The translations under genes and the position numbers were made by a program. From positions 1 through 5,314 of the forward strand of contig JAUXFG010000224.1 in the NCBI GenBank assembly GCA_030620115.1: 5,314 nucleotides of DNA, in the 5' to 3' direction. The notes under the pieces were generated by a model. The model was not told where the DNA came from. It did not search any database and saw only the letters and a list, made by a program, of their open reading frames with translations. The DNA comes from Candidatus Fermentibacterota bacterium (GTDB lineage: Bacteria; JAFGKV01). Numbering within the stretch: the first letter of the stretch is position 1; every line of letters begins with the position of its first letter. Positions 1-5,314 of the stretch are shown in pieces.

Positions 1-594
1 CCATCTCAGCGTGTATTTCCAATCGGATACATCCAGCGTGTCTAATCCGAACTCCACCTCCTGCTTGACGGTGACCTCTTCTCCGCCTCCTTCGGGCTCA
101 TACGTCACATAATGCCAGTACTTCACTTCATCTGCTGCCGCACTTTGCACAAACGAACACTCCGACGATAACGAATCCGGAAGTATCCTGAACACTGTCT
201 TCGATGGCACTTCCGCTTCATCATTCTCATCCACCGGCACATCCAGAATCTGATCCGACAGCTCCTCATCCACCTCCACCTTCACCACCCAGATACTCAA
301 CGATTCTTCCTCACTCAGGTACCAGATCGGATCATTCTGTGATCCTGGTGGATACGGACCAAATACCTCTGGCATGAACTTGTACTTGTTCGGCTCATAG
401 TCCCTCGTCTTGAAATAGTAGGTGTCCGGTCCCAAGACCATCAATGACTCCTCGCCATCAATCTCCATCCAGATGCTGTCTATCCGGGTATACGGAACTT
501 CCTCCCCCATGCCCAGATCGAACTGTCGGCTGGGGAGGTTATCGTTGCCCTCGAATAGAGCCAGTCGCACGGAAGCGGACTCATCGGATCAAAT
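1..594 (-). pseudogene. Truncated, frameshifted partial copy of the middle region of the upstream giant gene; continues off the left edge
   Basis: Read on the minus strand, this region matches codons ~367-563 of the giant gene (3581-4172). It opens with the shared SPLPCDWLYS and ends at the left edge in TLDVSDWKYTLRW. The best conserved block, ELSDQILDVPVDENDEAEVP, differs from the parent by one residue (Q for R). The copy has no 5' part: similarity stops at 594, and an in-frame TGA (599-597) lies in the adjoining palindrome. Neither ATG 584 nor ATG 510 has a ribosome binding site. A single-base deletion relative to the parent, at about 508-512, shifts the frame: frame one ends at TAG 482-480, and the parental frame is then open for all 170 codons from 510 to the edge. 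The only other length change I found is one extra in-frame codon near 80-85. This looks like a silent duplicate or orphan cassette; whether a functional 3' end follows off window is unknown. The deletion could be a sequencing error. Confidence 0.75.
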
Positions 595-596
595 GC

Positions 597-640
597 TCAG
601 GGCTCCTGATATGTTGAGCTCAACATATCAGGAGCCCTGA
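597..640. repeat. Perfect 44-bp palindrome with no central spacer
   Basis: The 22 bases of each arm are exact reverse complements. The symmetry centre lies between 618 and 619 inside GAGCTC (616-621), and the inner arm is CTCCTGATATGTTGAG. Symmetry ends at 597 and 640 because c596 cannot pair with a641, so the flanks are unrelated and this is not the edge of a longer fold-back. It begins two bases after similarity between the partial copy and its parent ends. RNA from either strand could form a strong hairpin, but no T-run follows on either side, so it is not a standard intrinsic terminator. It may be a recombination or integration scar, an operator, an RNA 3'-end stabiliser, or an assembly join. 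Confidence 0.93.
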
Positions 641-887
641 ATCTGAGAATAGTTGTCGCTTGACAAAAGCAAAGGTCGCGGCGCTCTAGGTCAGAAATGG
701 TTTCCAGCCGGCCCACAGGCATCGCCAGCGGTGTGCACTGCGTTCTCGCCCTTGGCAGAATTCCGGCGCGCCGAATCCCCAATGTGATAGTCCACTACGC
801 CCCCGTTCGCCCATAATGGCGTGAAGGTCACAATGCAAGGCTTATCCGGTGACGCTCACGAGCGCGGTGCCGGCCCCGCTGGCGGTC
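641..887. other. Non-coding stretch between the 388-residue gene and the palindrome
   Basis: About 250 bases in which I see no convincing gene. The longest minus-strand open frame with a start (782-597) uses the palindrome for its last 15 codons, has no ribosome binding site and reads as low-information sequence. Just downstream of the stop at 888, a GC-rich imperfect inverted repeat (about 846-874, with CGCTC and GAGCG as its core) could slow transcription, but no T-run follows. No promoter with a good -35/-10 pair was found on either strand. It may hold decayed remnants of an older gene. Confidence 0.5.
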
Positions 888-2054
888 CTACTCTTCCAGG
901 CGCCCTTCCGCTATCCCCCAGTACACGTCCTCGATGATCGGATCTTGCGCAAGCACACGCTGGTCGACTACCGACTCGCCCGCGATCCGCCCCTCGATGA
1001 GCTCCTGCCCCTTGCGATACAAGATATGCTCATCCCATATTTCGAGTATCTCGCATCCTACGCCCATTCCTTCCTCGGTCCAATCCCGCCCATCCTTCCA
1101 GTTAACAAACCTGTAGGGTCCGCTACGAACCCCATAGCCCGTTTGGTGGATCCCCCGGCGGTCCTCCAAGGTCATGTACGTGAATACCACCCACTCAGAG
1201 AACGCTTGGGCCACCGTCCCTCCTCCTGGCGAGAGGAATACCTCCCAGTCATCCTTGCCCCGGAGATGCATGGCATGGAAGCGCTGATCCTTCCCTTCTT
1301 CTTTTCCGTTGAGCCTGAATGCGAACAGAATCACTGAATCCGTCTGGGCGGATACCCCTCCACCGAGCACATCCCCCTTCCATCGGGTTCCGGGGAGCAT
1401 CCGAACGACGCTATCAGGCATGGCCACCGCCAGCGGGCGTGGTTCTGTACGCACGTTGTACCAGTAAGAAAGCTGACCACTCTTCGATACGTTGACCGCG
1501 AGAGGCCCATAGAACTTGCGACTCGGTATCGAGCCGTTGTACCTGACCAGATCCAGACGTCCCATCATTTCTGAAGTAGTGATCTCTCCAAGGCCGCCAT
1601 CCGCTGTAGTCGCCGTGTAGACGTCCACGCCGTCGGCCACGTGGCCGCGCAGGCCATGAGTCAACACGCCCACCGTAGAGTCATTTTCCGCAAGGAGATG
1701 CCCTCCGAAAACGGGATCAGAGTCTATCACCGACCTCAGATGGTCTTCCAAGTTGCGCAGATCGACAAGCGACACACGGCATTTCTTCGCCCTTAATCCC
1801 AAATCCTTTCCATTTTCCCAGCGACACCAGGTTGCTAGAACACCTCGCTCCCTCCAAAGCTCTACCTTGCGCACATTTCCACCATCCAGTGGAACTTCGC
1901 TTACCAAAGACATGCCGGCATCATGGTCAACTTTCCAGATCTGCGGATTCTCTGGAGGCACCCCTTCCTCTAAAGCAGAAACCACAAGATATCCTGCCAT
2001 CGCAAACCCAGGCAGTAGACTGCCGAATAATATGGCCCAAGTAAGATTTCTCAT
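888..2054 (-). CDS. Exported protein of unknown family, translationally coupled to the SLT-domain gene; candidate partner or immunity protein
   Basis: This 388-residue protein was not recognised. The start is well supported: ATG at 2054 overlaps the upstream stop as ATGA, with AGGAGGT six bases upstream. Residues 4-28 are hydrophobic after Arg2, and AMA at 18-20 before Gly21 is a plausible signal peptidase I site. An uncleaved membrane anchor is also possible because hydrophobicity continues through YLVVSAL. There is no Cys lipobox. The mature part has repeated short strand-like segments with aromatic and Val/Ile clusters (LSYWYNV, SVILFAFRL, EWVVFTYMTL, EHILYRKG) separated by polar turns, which suggests a beta-propeller or similar all-beta fold. 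I see no catalytic motif. The tight coupling implies production in fixed proportion to the upstream protein. A periplasmic inhibitor or immunity protein for the SLT domain fits the location and context, but substrate-binding or surface-assembly roles fit too. The gene is real; its function is unknown. Confidence 0.8.
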   Translation of the reverse strand: MRNLTWAILFGSLLPGFAMAGYLVVSALEEGVPPENPQIWKVDHDAGMSLVSEVPLDGGNVRKVELWRERGVLATWCRWENGKDLGLRAKKCRVSLVDLRNLEDHLRSVIDSDPVFGGHLLAENDSTVGVLTHGLRGHVADGVDVYTATTADGGLGEITTSEMMGRLDLVRYNGSIPSRKFYGPLAVNVSKSGQLSYWYNVRTEPRPLAVAMPDSVVRMLPGTRWKGDVLGGGVSAQTDSVILFAFRLNGKEEGKDQRFHAMHLRGKDDWEVFLSPGGGTVAQAFSEWVVFTYMTLEDRRGIHQTGYGVRSGPYRFVNWKDGRDWTEEGMGVGCEILEIWDEHILYRKGQELIEGRIAGESVVDQRVLAQDPIIEDVYWGIAEGRLEE

Positions 2055-5000
2055 TGATTCACCTCCTGCATCACCCTATTGAGATACCAGTCATTGTGAT
2101 CCCAATCCCAATGGCGGTCCGCAACCTCTTCCTCCCAGTCTACCCACCAGATTGGCCAATCACCTCCCTGACCGTTGTACCTCCACATGGCACAAGCGTC
2201 TGTGGGTGTCCGACCAGTGCCCTCTTGGAATGTGACTCCCGCCCACGTGAAGACCTCGTTCTGCAACGGCAAGTCAGGCCTGTCGTTGATCTGCTGTTCT
2301 ATCTGTCTCTGAATCCAATCCGCAGCCTCTCCACGATGGTCCTCCATCCTCGCCAATCCCTCATCAACATTTGCCGTCCAACTCCAAAGCTCCTGGGCTC
2401 CTGGAGTCGGCGTATCAAGTTGCATGATGCCCCAGCCCTCCACGGGTCCTCCCCAGTTTGGGCACCCCCGGATGTCTCCCCACCCCGGGCCCCATGCGCC
2501 AACCTCGTTGAACTGGGCATAGTAGCGGCCCTGCGTCGGGTGATCGCTCTCATGCCGGGCGATGTAGTGTGCATACCAAATCCCAGATGCCATGATCCTG
2601 GCCTCCACTTCGTCCACCGGGGGATTCACCCCTCTGATGTGGAACACATAGTCCTGATAGACTGTCACGCCCGCCACGCTCCACCTTAGCCTTGCCTTGC
2701 CGCCACGTCGGTCCTCGCCGAATTCATTTCTCATTACCCACTGTTCACCGGCACCGCACCACTCCCCATACGTATCGTAGTCCTGCCTCGCGTTTCGACG
2801 GTATTCGAGCACCAAATCCCAGTGTACAAAACCCTGCAGTTGCGGAGGAAGCATCTGCGCCCGCAGGTCCGGCATTTGGTCGTTACTGATGAAGGCGAAT
2901 TTGTCCAACCCGATCTCCAGCGTGGGAGTGACGTCCGGGTGTATGACTGTGAACTCCGCACGATCCAACTCTATCTCGCTCGATTGACCGTCCGATACTA
3001 CCAGAACGAGTGGTGCATCATGAGTAACCAAGCTCTTTTTCCACCCCTCAACCCACAAGTCCGTGAAGTCAGCCTGTGTCTCCTCTGTGAGCGAGTACCA
3101 GCATTCGCTGGTAGTGGCAGGATCTACGACGAGGTTCTCGAAACCACCAGTGCACCCCCTCCACACTCTCAGTCTGTCGCTCATCGAACGTAATCCTACC
3201 TTGAAACCATTAAGGTAGAACCAATCCGTCCACGGTTCCAATTGGATCTCGATCTTAACCAGGTCATTCTCGACGTCCACGAAATCTCCATACAGCAATT
3301 CTTCGGAATCAGGTATGTACTGATCACCGTTATCGTGGTCTGAGTTCAAGGGCACGTACACTCCCCTGCCCGGAAGTTGCTCCTCTACTTCGGGCACTGC
3401 ATTCCCGTTGGGAAGGTAGACTACTAGCCCGAACCCAGCAGCCAACGCCTCAATGTGGCCATCCGAATGGCCGGCTCCGGTCTCACGCGAACCACCCGTT
3501 TCCCCCCATCTCATCGAAATATGACTCGTGTATGGATTGTGGGCTGGATCGAACCATTGGTCGCCATCATCCTTCTGTTCCCAATGCAGCGTGTATCGCC
3601 AGTCTGATACATCCAGTGAGTCCAGTCCGAACTCAACCTCCTGCTTGACGGTGATCTCTTCGCCTCCTTCGGGCTGATACGTCACATAGTGGTAGAATTT
3701 CACTTCCTCTGCTGCCGCACTATGCACAAACGAACACTCCGCAGACAACGAATCCGGAAGTATCCTGAACACTGTTCTCGATGGCACCTCCGCTTCATCA
3801 TTCTCGTCCACCGGCACATCCAGAATCCTATCCGACAACTCCTCATCAACCTTAACTTGCACTACCCAGAAGCTGACTGAATCTTCTTCGCTCAGATACC
3901 ACAACGTATCCGTCGGCGCGTCAGGGGGATACGGACCATATATCTCGGGCCGGTAGGTGTACAAATTCGGCTCCCAGTCACTCGTGTCGATATAGAGCTT
4001 GTCATCCTCCATCACCAACAATGACTCCTCCCCATCTATCATCATCCAGATGCTGTCTATCTGCACAAAATGTATCTGCTCCCCCTTCGCCCAGATCGAA
4101 CTGTCAGTCGGAGATACTATGTGAGACGTCGAATACAGCCAGTCGCACGGCAGCGGACTCATCGGATCAAATTCTACCTCAGGATAGTACTCCTGCCACT
4201 CATCAGTCATACACCCATACACAATGCGCAACTGACCCCATCTGTACCAATCACCCCCGGGCGTGGTCATGCCTCCATTCAATGAACCCTGTATGATGTA
4301 TCCTCCTCCACCCATGGCATCCCAGCATACATACCCTACTCCCTCCCACTCCTCATCGCTCACCAGCTCTCCAGGTACCTTCACCTCATATCCCGCATGC
4401 ACATACGACCAGATTTGCCATAGCGCCCAGGCCGGCAGATCCATCAGCCCCATCTGTTCCTCTGCATTCGTGCTGTCCACATCATAGATCGCTATCCCCT
4501 GCTCAACCGCGCGAACCAATACCTTCACCGCGCTCACCGCATTCACCCCACATCGCTCAGCAAACACTTCATGCTCCATCCACGACGCCGAGCCTCCTCC
4601 CACAAACGTCCGCCCCTCCACAACCTTGTCGCGATCGCTCACTACTTTCCCTAACTCTACCAGATCGTTCGCACAATATATGTTCACGTACAATCCATTC
4701 CATGATACCCCCACCGCCTGCCCAAACACATCCGCACGCTTCAGCTCCGTGGACGCCACCGACATATCAGGCTCCTGTATTACCCACGTCCACCACAATT
4801 CGCCAAATCGGTCCCACATCCGTCCCACATGTTCCCAATATCGCATCACCATCCCGTGCAGCTCGCGACCCTGAGCCCCTTCTCCGTCGCCAGTACCGCG
4901 CCGCTCCCGCCACAGCAGCCCCGGAACACGCCACCCCATGGCGCCTGCACCCCACACCATCCCAGCCGTCATCTCCATCTCTCGATCGAACAGTTCTCCC

Positions 5001-5314
5001 TTGGGACTCGTCATCCGCCACCGAACCAGATACTTCTTCCCCAATCCGATCCCACCTTCGCCATGTGCTACTGTCTCTCCCTGTAGACGCATCACCGGCG
5101 TTAGCCTCACCAAGTACGCCGGCACCTCGAACAGCCCCCCATACGAAACTATTGTCACCGCGTCCTCGAGTGTCTCAGGTTTGAACCCTAACACCAACCG
5201 CCGCGTACCAACTTCCGCCATGGCAAGCTCCGCAGACAGCAATGTATCTGATCCACTGTACGCCTTCACTTCCAGCTTGTACCGCCAGCTTTCCGGGCAC
5301 TCATCATACTCCCC
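2051..5314 (-). CDS. Large transglutaminase-like-family protein ending in a lytic transglycosylase (SLT/lysozyme-like) domain; 5' end off window
   Basis: The frame is open to the right edge. A GTG at 5269 is not the likely start: it has no ribosome binding site, and the 15 codons before it (GEYDECPESWRYKLE) continue the family similarity. Residues below count from that GTG (1072 to the stop). Residues 1-340 resemble, from memory of the family, the part that follows the Cys-His-Asp core in large transglutaminase-like proteins: SYGGLFEVPAYLVRLTPV (42-59), AVSAVKVLVRAVEQGIAIY (244-262), EWEGVGYVCWDAMGGGGYII (307-326), then QGSLNGG. Any catalytic core would lie off window. Residues 360-885 are beta-rich and acidic, with an Asp-rich VPLNSDHDNGDQYIPD segment (639-654). 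Residues ~893-1050 form an SLT-like domain: putative catalytic Glu907 in IARHES, GWGIMQL (945-951), ANVDEG (966-971) and YNG (1031-1033). It should cleave the glycan strand of peptidoglycan, so it probably acts in the periplasm or outside the cell. The stop overlaps the next gene. The lysozyme-like call is firm; a toxin role is inferred. Confidence 0.86.
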   Translation of the reverse strand, partial: GEYDECPESWRYKLEVKAYSGSDTLLSAELAMAEVGTRRLVLGFKPETLEDAVTIVSYGGLFEVPAYLVRLTPVMRLQGETVAHGEGGIGLGKKYLVRWRMTSPKGELFDREMEMTAGMVWGAGAMGWRVPGLLWRERRGTGDGEGAQGRELHGMVMRYWEHVGRMWDRFGELWWTWVIQEPDMSVASTELKRADVFGQAVGVSWNGLYVNIYCANDLVELGKVVSDRDKVVEGRTFVGGGSASWMEHEVFAERCGVNAVSAVKVLVRAVEQGIAIYDVDSTNAEEQMGLMDLPAWALWQIWSYVHAGYEVKVPGELVSDEEWEGVGYVCWDAMGGGGYIIQGSLNGGMTTPGGDWYRWGQLRIVYGCMTDEWQEYYPEVEFDPMSPLPCDWLYSTSHIVSPTDSSIWAKGEQIHFVQIDSIWMMIDGEESLLVMEDDKLYIDTSDWEPNLYTYRPEIYGPYPPDAPTDTLWYLSEEDSVSFWVVQVKVDEELSDRILDVPVDENDEAEVPSRTVFRILPDSLSAECSFVHSAAAEEVKFYHYVTYQPEGGEEITVKQEVEFGLDSLDVSDWRYTLHWEQKDDGDQWFDPAHNPYTSHISMRWGETGGSRETGAGHSDGHIEALAAGFGLVVYLPNGNAVPEVEEQLPGRGVYVPLNSDHDNGDQYIPDSEELLYGDFVDVENDLVKIEIQLEPWTDWFYLNGFKVGLRSMSDRLRVWRGCTGGFENLVVDPATTSECWYSLTEETQADFTDLWVEGWKKSLVTHDAPLVLVVSDGQSSEIELDRAEFTVIHPDVTPTLEIGLDKFAFISNDQMPDLRAQMLPPQLQGFVHWDLVLEYRRNARQDYDTYGEWCGAGEQWVMRNEFGEDRRGGKARLRWSVAGVTVYQDYVFHIRGVNPPVDEVEARIMASGIWYAHYIARHESDHPTQGRYYAQFNEVGAWGPGWGDIRGCPNWGGPVEGWGIMQLDTPTPGAQELWSWTANVDEGLARMEDHRGEAADWIQRQIEQQINDRPDLPLQNEVFTWAGVTFQEGTGRTPTDACAMWRYNGQGGDWPIWWVDWEEEVADRHWDWDHNDWYLNRVMQEVNQ
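2061..2067 (-). promoter_or_regulatory. Ribosome binding site of the 388-residue gene
   Basis: AGGAGGT on the minus strand, with a six-base spacer before ATG 2054. It lies within the last codons of the giant gene (the QEVNQ end), so ribosomes finishing the upstream gene end on top of it. This fixes the start of the downstream gene and supports coupled translation. Confidence 0.9.
3581..4172 (-). repeat. Parent half of a ~0.59-kb direct repeat shared with 1-594
   Basis: This segment lies inside the giant gene (residues ~367-563) and has a second, diverged copy at 1-594 in the same orientation, about 3.6 kb away. Identity varies along its length. It is very high around the codons for ILDVPVDENDEAEVP and SPLPCDWLYS, and low around residues 381-403 and 421-455. 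The lengths, 592 and 594 bases, agree with one extra codon and one lost base in the copy. Direct repeats of this kind can recombine, which here would delete the SLT domain and the 388-residue gene together. Confidence 0.8.

Follow-up and report, generated by a model that had tools for sequence, protein, structure and literature searches.

The closest described systems to the locus analyzed here are the RIT elements, in which recombinase genes are arranged in a trio, and the dif site of the XerCD system. The reason why RIT uses three tyrosine recombinases and the way in which it moves have been called "difficult to understand", the features of its ends fit the usual sites poorly, and an inverted repeat with an overlapping palindromic sequence at RIT ends has been recorded and left unexplained (PMC3414803). 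The dif site reads ACTTCGCATAA-TGTATA-TTATGTTAAAT (PMC2731167). The window studied here, that is, the whole stretch of DNA that was analyzed, is a complete contig (C36, 5314 bp) of a 4.1-Mb genome in 296 contigs, and it contains a palindrome that is probably the solo footprint of a RIT element. The core of this palindrome is, with still greater confidence, a back-to-back pair of recombinase half-sites (D.D) of a RIT attachment site, standing here without the RIT itself.

The palindrome (Table 1) is perfect over 44 bp, with 22-nt arms and neither spacer nor loop, as the preliminary description had stated, and it is the only inverted repeat of its kind in the window. Perfect arms of 22 nt are expected about 3e-7 times by chance in a genome of 4.1 Mb. 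Its inner 20 bp read ATATGTTGAGCTCAACATAT. No RIT genes were found in the window, where three adjacent overlapping tyrosine recombinase genes were sought, nor was a RIT terminal inverted repeat of about 34 bp found around 597-640. The predicted hairpin is strong (-38 kcal/mol, z -7.4) and would be expected of a terminator, an operator or a REP-like element, but a regulatory role of this kind is very improbable, as no terminator-like site (hairpin with T run) or promoter-like site was detected in 400-900, no Rfam match was obtained, and only a handful of copies exist in the 4.1 Mb.

Table 1. Features of the window around the palindrome and of the duplicated gene, with the basis of each assignment.
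Feature	Position	Strand	Basis
Frame-changed partial copy of a segment of the large gene (2051-5314)	1..597	-	Alignment to paralogue
Paralogous comparison stretch inside the large gene	3581..4188	-	Alignment
Probable continuation of the copy past the palindrome, ATCTGAGAATAGT	641..653	-	10/13 identities, ungapped once 598-640 is removed
Whole palindrome, TCAGGGCTCCTGATATGTTGAG.CTCAACATATCAGGAGCCCTGA	597..640		Direct reading of the window
Outer arm TCAGGG	597..602	+	Together with the hexamer, identical to the two ends of the IS-like element at C77, TCAGGGCTCCTGACATG
Left hexamer CTCCTG, putative central spacer of a dif-like site	603..608	+	Position equals the 6-bp spacer of RIT ends
Core D.D, two putative back-to-back recombinase half-sites, ATATGTTGAG.CTCAACATAT	609..628		Type standing 6 bp outside RIT ends
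Right hexamer CTCCTG (CAGGAG on plus)	629..634	-	Mirror of the left hexamer
Outer arm TCAGGG (CCCTGA on plus)	635..640	-	Match to the C77 element ends

The core occurs elsewhere in the same genome. The search for further copies that the preliminary description had proposed found the 24-mer TGATATGTTGAGCTCAACATATCA exactly at C36 (the window), C43 and C102, with no other site within two mismatches, and the pattern WTATGNNGAGCTCNNCATAW added a fourth copy at C196 (TTATGTTGAGCTCAACATAA), giving four close-form copies of the 20-bp core, while a reversed control pattern gave zero. The window and C102 cores are identical in 20/20 positions. Read towards the core, the flanks are CTCCTG on both sides in the window, CTCCTG and CCTTTG at C43, and CCCGTG and CCTTTG at C102, the left hexamer of the palindrome thus recurring beside the C43 core. 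A wide occurrence at gene ends, which the preliminary description had named as evidence against its reading, was not seen: the exact 24-mer is absent from the GTDB species contigs (84,980 species genomes) and from IMG/VR, a scan outside which the window's own or near-identical records may fall. No copy of the core was present in the two other genomes of the phylum compared, G001 and G002, where near matches to TCAGGGCTCCTGANATG were set aside as not palindromic; the full 20-bp palindrome was likewise lacking in Vibrio (L089), where 19 nt of the core match, and in Pantoea (L090), where half of it does. At C43:1-129 (L022), the palindrome interrupts what appears to be the beginning of a tyrosine recombinase gene, and no second copy of this stretch was found in the genome. 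Sequence rich in TTGAACC / GGTTCAA stands in several RIT or palindrome flanks (C102, C43, C290) and is perhaps a preferred non-coding target.

Two of the four core copies (C196 and C102) lie exactly 6 bp outside a RIT terminal repeat, leaving C43 and the window as the solo copies of this genome. The RIT at C196 is complete: its three tyrosine recombinase genes overlap or adjoin one another and encode PF00589 proteins of 421, 302 and 343 aa, a layout that matches the published description (PMC3414803), and its terminal repeats are perfect over 34 bp, the palindrome standing outside the ritC-side repeat. Beside this palindrome, a 63-aa fragment (L020, 1317-1508) reads as the putative start of a Y1/REP-associated transposase and gave no profile match. 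The RIT end at C102 was recognized by the repeat CTCCACATAACGTGGCGCTTCACATAA, whose other matches are at C127, C269, C290 and the far end of C196; of these, C127, C269 and C290 are RIT ends without the palindrome, and the C196 end runs off its contig. The genome thus shows six RIT ends, both with and without D.D. A reading of the core as coding sequence (MLSSTYQ on both strands) was dropped after the RIT ends had been recognized. C102:1-116 and the end of C127 (L094, L095) have some 116 bp of RIT end in common but diverge just past the hexamer CCCGTG, where one contig enters the palindrome and the other a different sequence, representing two RIT copies or two states.

RIT ends were also surveyed in other organisms, using 17 RitA relatives from GTDB contigs together with RITs in complete plasmids and E. 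coli genomes. In a RIT end, the outer box C (CTTCACATAA) is separated by a 6-bp hexamer from what comes next, which is the target half D' or else the 20-bp D.D (TTATGTTGAG.CTCAACATAA) with the other target half C' behind it; the end in L031, for instance, reads CTTCACATAA-CACGCT-TTATGTTGAG. The D.D palindrome was present at 10 of the 31 RIT ends tabulated (six with at least 8/10 arm pairs, three from E. coli with 7/10, and one interrupted where its contig stops), and its distance from the outer box was exactly 6 bp in every case. In the eight elements whose two ends were visible, it stood at one end in six, at neither in two and at both in none. A second type of RIT in L032 has different boxes (CTCGGCATAG) and a matching different palindrome (TTATGCCGAG.CTCGGCATAA), and palindrome and box therefore change together. 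Looser 20-bp palindromes were seen by inspection at the same place in RITs of Marinobacter (L074) and Mesorhizobium (L080). In an Enterobacter plasmid (L076), the 20-mer is identical to that of C196, and the order is the 5' half of a DNA methylase gene, GACCCC, TTATGTTGAGCTCAACATAA, CGGGTC and the RIT, with GACCCC and the methylase 3' half at the other end. The RIT in the E. coli chromosomal gene yhdJ has the same form, with a 6-bp direct repeat, and 5339 of 5426 genomes contain a match to at least 80 percent of the empty yhdJ target with its single GACCCG. The orientation of the element in L085 is opposite to that in L083, L084 and L086, yet the palindrome remains on the methylase 5' half in all four.

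The recurrence of one architecture in complete plasmids and chromosomes bears on whether the palindrome could be an artefact of assembly or library preparation, such as a foldback, a chimeric join or linker sequence. The genome is a short-contig MAG, and the two other exact copies of the core lie about 115 bp from contig ends, as such an origin might produce; however, the spacing between core and RIT end is invariably 6 bp, and C102 and C127 end where the RIT end is repeated, with about 116 bp in common. An artefact is therefore highly unlikely.

The targets of these elements are conserved motifs, mostly of mobile-element enzymes. RITs of several phyla (L030, L031, L033-L041) sit at the catalytic HxH codons of Y1/REP-associated transposases, and all downstream halves for which a profile matches begin at position 52 (Pfam) or 58 (NCBIfam). 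Other sites include yhdJ-type methylases, recombinase genes and istA of IS21 (L075, by reading). In L083-L086 (E. coli WP4-S18-ESBL-07 and strain 550), near-identical RITs occupy the chromosome and plasmids of one strain, suggesting recent activity, and those copies that were read are all in DNA methylase genes. Two RITs without D.D have a different context: in L038, both flanks are the downstream, same-side halves of two different Y1-type genes, with NCBIfam support for both, and the flanks in L040 read likewise, being too short for a profile match.

Solo copies of D.D are not restricted to the genome of the window. In the complete E. coli plasmid pUTAK-1-pO45, a solo D.D joins the 5' half of a methylase gene to the 5' half of IS3 orfB (CTCGACCCG-TTATG...), where an IS3 copy without insertion continues GACCTG-TTCGC. 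Similar matches were found in four more E. coli records, and none of these genomes with a solo D.D is one in which this RIT was detected.

These observations can be accommodated in a model in which C-6bp-D, by its resemblance to a dif site, acts as a recombination site and the palindrome represents two D boxes placed back to back. The excised RIT circle would then have the form C-6-D.D-6-C, in which a single palindrome serves two recombination sites. Use of one site in a single crossover would produce D'-6-C-RIT-C-6-D.D-6-C', with D.D at a single end and in either orientation, which agrees with the RIT insertions observed. Use of both sites with two targets would place the RIT between two D' halves and leave D.D alone between two C' halves, a prediction that the two elements without D.D and with same-side halves of two genes (L038, L040) fit. 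The proposition that RITs carry such a twin attachment site, two dif-like sites with a shared D.D, and that their simultaneous use produces two junctions, one holding the RIT and the other a solo 20-bp palindrome, is given an even chance of being correct.

Applied to the window, the model would make both C' halves TCAGGG-CTCCTG, corresponding to the ends of an IS-like element, and the palindrome would be perfect over 44 bp because two identical C' halves surround D.D (6+6+20+6+6 bp). The element in question lies at C77, encodes a PF21804 transposase, and has TCAGGGCTCCTGACATG at both ends. This sequence may be the terminal repeat of the C77 element itself, a reading that must stay inferential because the element is single-copy and without a usable relative; relatives of its transposase, sought in plasmid and viral collections to define the element ends, yielded none that could be used. 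In the simplest course, the interior of one IS copy residing in the duplicated gene would have been exchanged for D.D, with its two ends serving as targets. Such an exchange fits the uninterrupted flanks of the window, but it is the weakest part of the model, and we consider it just as likely to be wrong as right. None of the six RIT ends in the assembly corresponds to the reciprocal product, in which CTCCTG-ACATGG would adjoin a RIT end.

The outer arms also lend themselves to another explanation, in which the 44 bp would be a minimal MITE: the terminal inverted repeats of the C77-type IS, fused to each other around an accidental centre and mobilized by its PF21804 transposase. The two ends of the C77 element match the outer 17 nt of the palindrome (TCAGGGCTCCTGAYATG), the palindrome looks like a clean insertion in the duplicate, and C206 contains a degenerate relative of the whole 44 bp (77 percent identical), all of which would suit a MITE. 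However, the centre was not found in the C77 element, yet its 20/20 bases recur at C43 and C102 with other flanks, at C102 beside a RIT end; core-only copies beside RIT ends are seen in further genomes (Enterobacter and E. coli); and no clear target-site duplication is present at the palindrome, whose flanks read AAATGC and ATCTG. The MITE reading is thus unlikely. The C206 relative (C206:4935-4987, L009) is possibly the product of an older event, although it could also indicate that the 44-bp unit is itself a family, which would count against the RIT footprint. Close to it, at approximately 5000-5035, another inverted repeat is found (GAGAAGTCCGGGC...GCCCGAACTTCTC).

A further possibility is that the symmetry is secondary, an imperfect palindrome like that of C206 having been made perfect by a template switch in the course of replication. 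The correction of quasi-palindromes is well established, and C206 does offer an imperfect relative; however, the step is not needed, as the two hexamers are identical, as are the two C' arms, and this is enough for perfect symmetry, and the D.D copies in E. coli are still imperfect. Secondary symmetry is therefore slightly less plausible than the already improbable MITE.

The position of the palindrome was also reconsidered. Residues 1-597 of the window are a diverged partial match to 3581-4175 within the large minus-strand gene, and the fragment differs in frame from its paralogue, so that it is not a plain truncated gene. The preliminary description had placed the palindrome exactly at the truncation point of the duplicate. 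The match to the paralogue does reach the palindrome, but this is probably not where homology ends: removal of 598-640 (43 bp) restores the register of the paralogue without duplication, and the ungapped alignment extends for 13 more bases (ATCTGAGAATAGT against ACCTCAGGATAGT, 10/13). Over 17 bp, the extension gives 12/17 matches, a value reached by 2 of the 5059 other window 17-mers at the same offsets. Because the alignment resumes in this way, the palindrome is probably an insertion inside the duplicated fragment, near its end, on evidence that is modest. No DNA-level alignment across the breakpoint was obtained with the G001 homologues of the duplicated gene. The large gene has no Pfam or NCBIfam match, and relatives were observed in the sister genome G001 and at C196:1144-1617. 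The preliminary description had suggested a role in rearrangement or a cassette boundary. Such a role is upheld as far as recombination is concerned, given that the core is very likely a RIT attachment half-site pair and that, in a complete plasmid of E. coli, a solo D.D links halves of two unrelated genes; nevertheless, it need not have caused the duplication. Insertion into an existing copy is more likely, since the duplicate seems to run on past the palindrome.

If the model is true, RITs would be inversion and gene-fusion machines, and solo D.D copies would record earlier events, as legible scars, in genomes from which the element has since been lost. The arrangement of box C, hexamer and shared palindrome constitutes a concrete model with separate predictions for the circle junction, orientation and solo scars, testable in laboratory E. 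coli. In addition, it supplies a short signature by which former RIT activity can be recognized where rit genes are absent.

For the D.D, hexamer and C geometry and for the solo copies, no description was found in the RIT literature covered, the main earlier survey (Ricker 2013) lying outside that scope, and part of the findings on RIT ends may already be in print. Compared with the complete RIT at C196 and its 34-bp terminal repeats, the copy in the window has neither rit genes nor a terminal repeat. SE, GInt and Tn554 resemble RIT in using several tyrosine recombinases and integrating at specific target sites, and SE and Tn554 also in a 6-bp footprint or spacer (PMC10214605, PMC5385486), but their gene sets differ; the word "palindrome" is absent from both of these papers. 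Like REP sequences and MITEs, the palindrome is short, palindromic, non-coding DNA. However, REP sequences have many intergenic copies, whereas here there are three exact core copies, that of C196 and one degenerate 44-bp relative, and, unlike REP or MITE, the insertion has no target duplication and the core is tied to RIT ends and not to a transposase of its own. The likeness to dif/XerCD lies in the order of box, 6-bp centre and box at RIT ends, with CTTCACATAA and TTATGTTGAG akin to the two dif boxes (PMC2731167). An interpretation of the core itself as a dif site was discarded: in contrast to dif, of which there is one per chromosome, the two boxes of the palindrome face outward with no centre between them, and the core is present in several copies and on plasmids as well.
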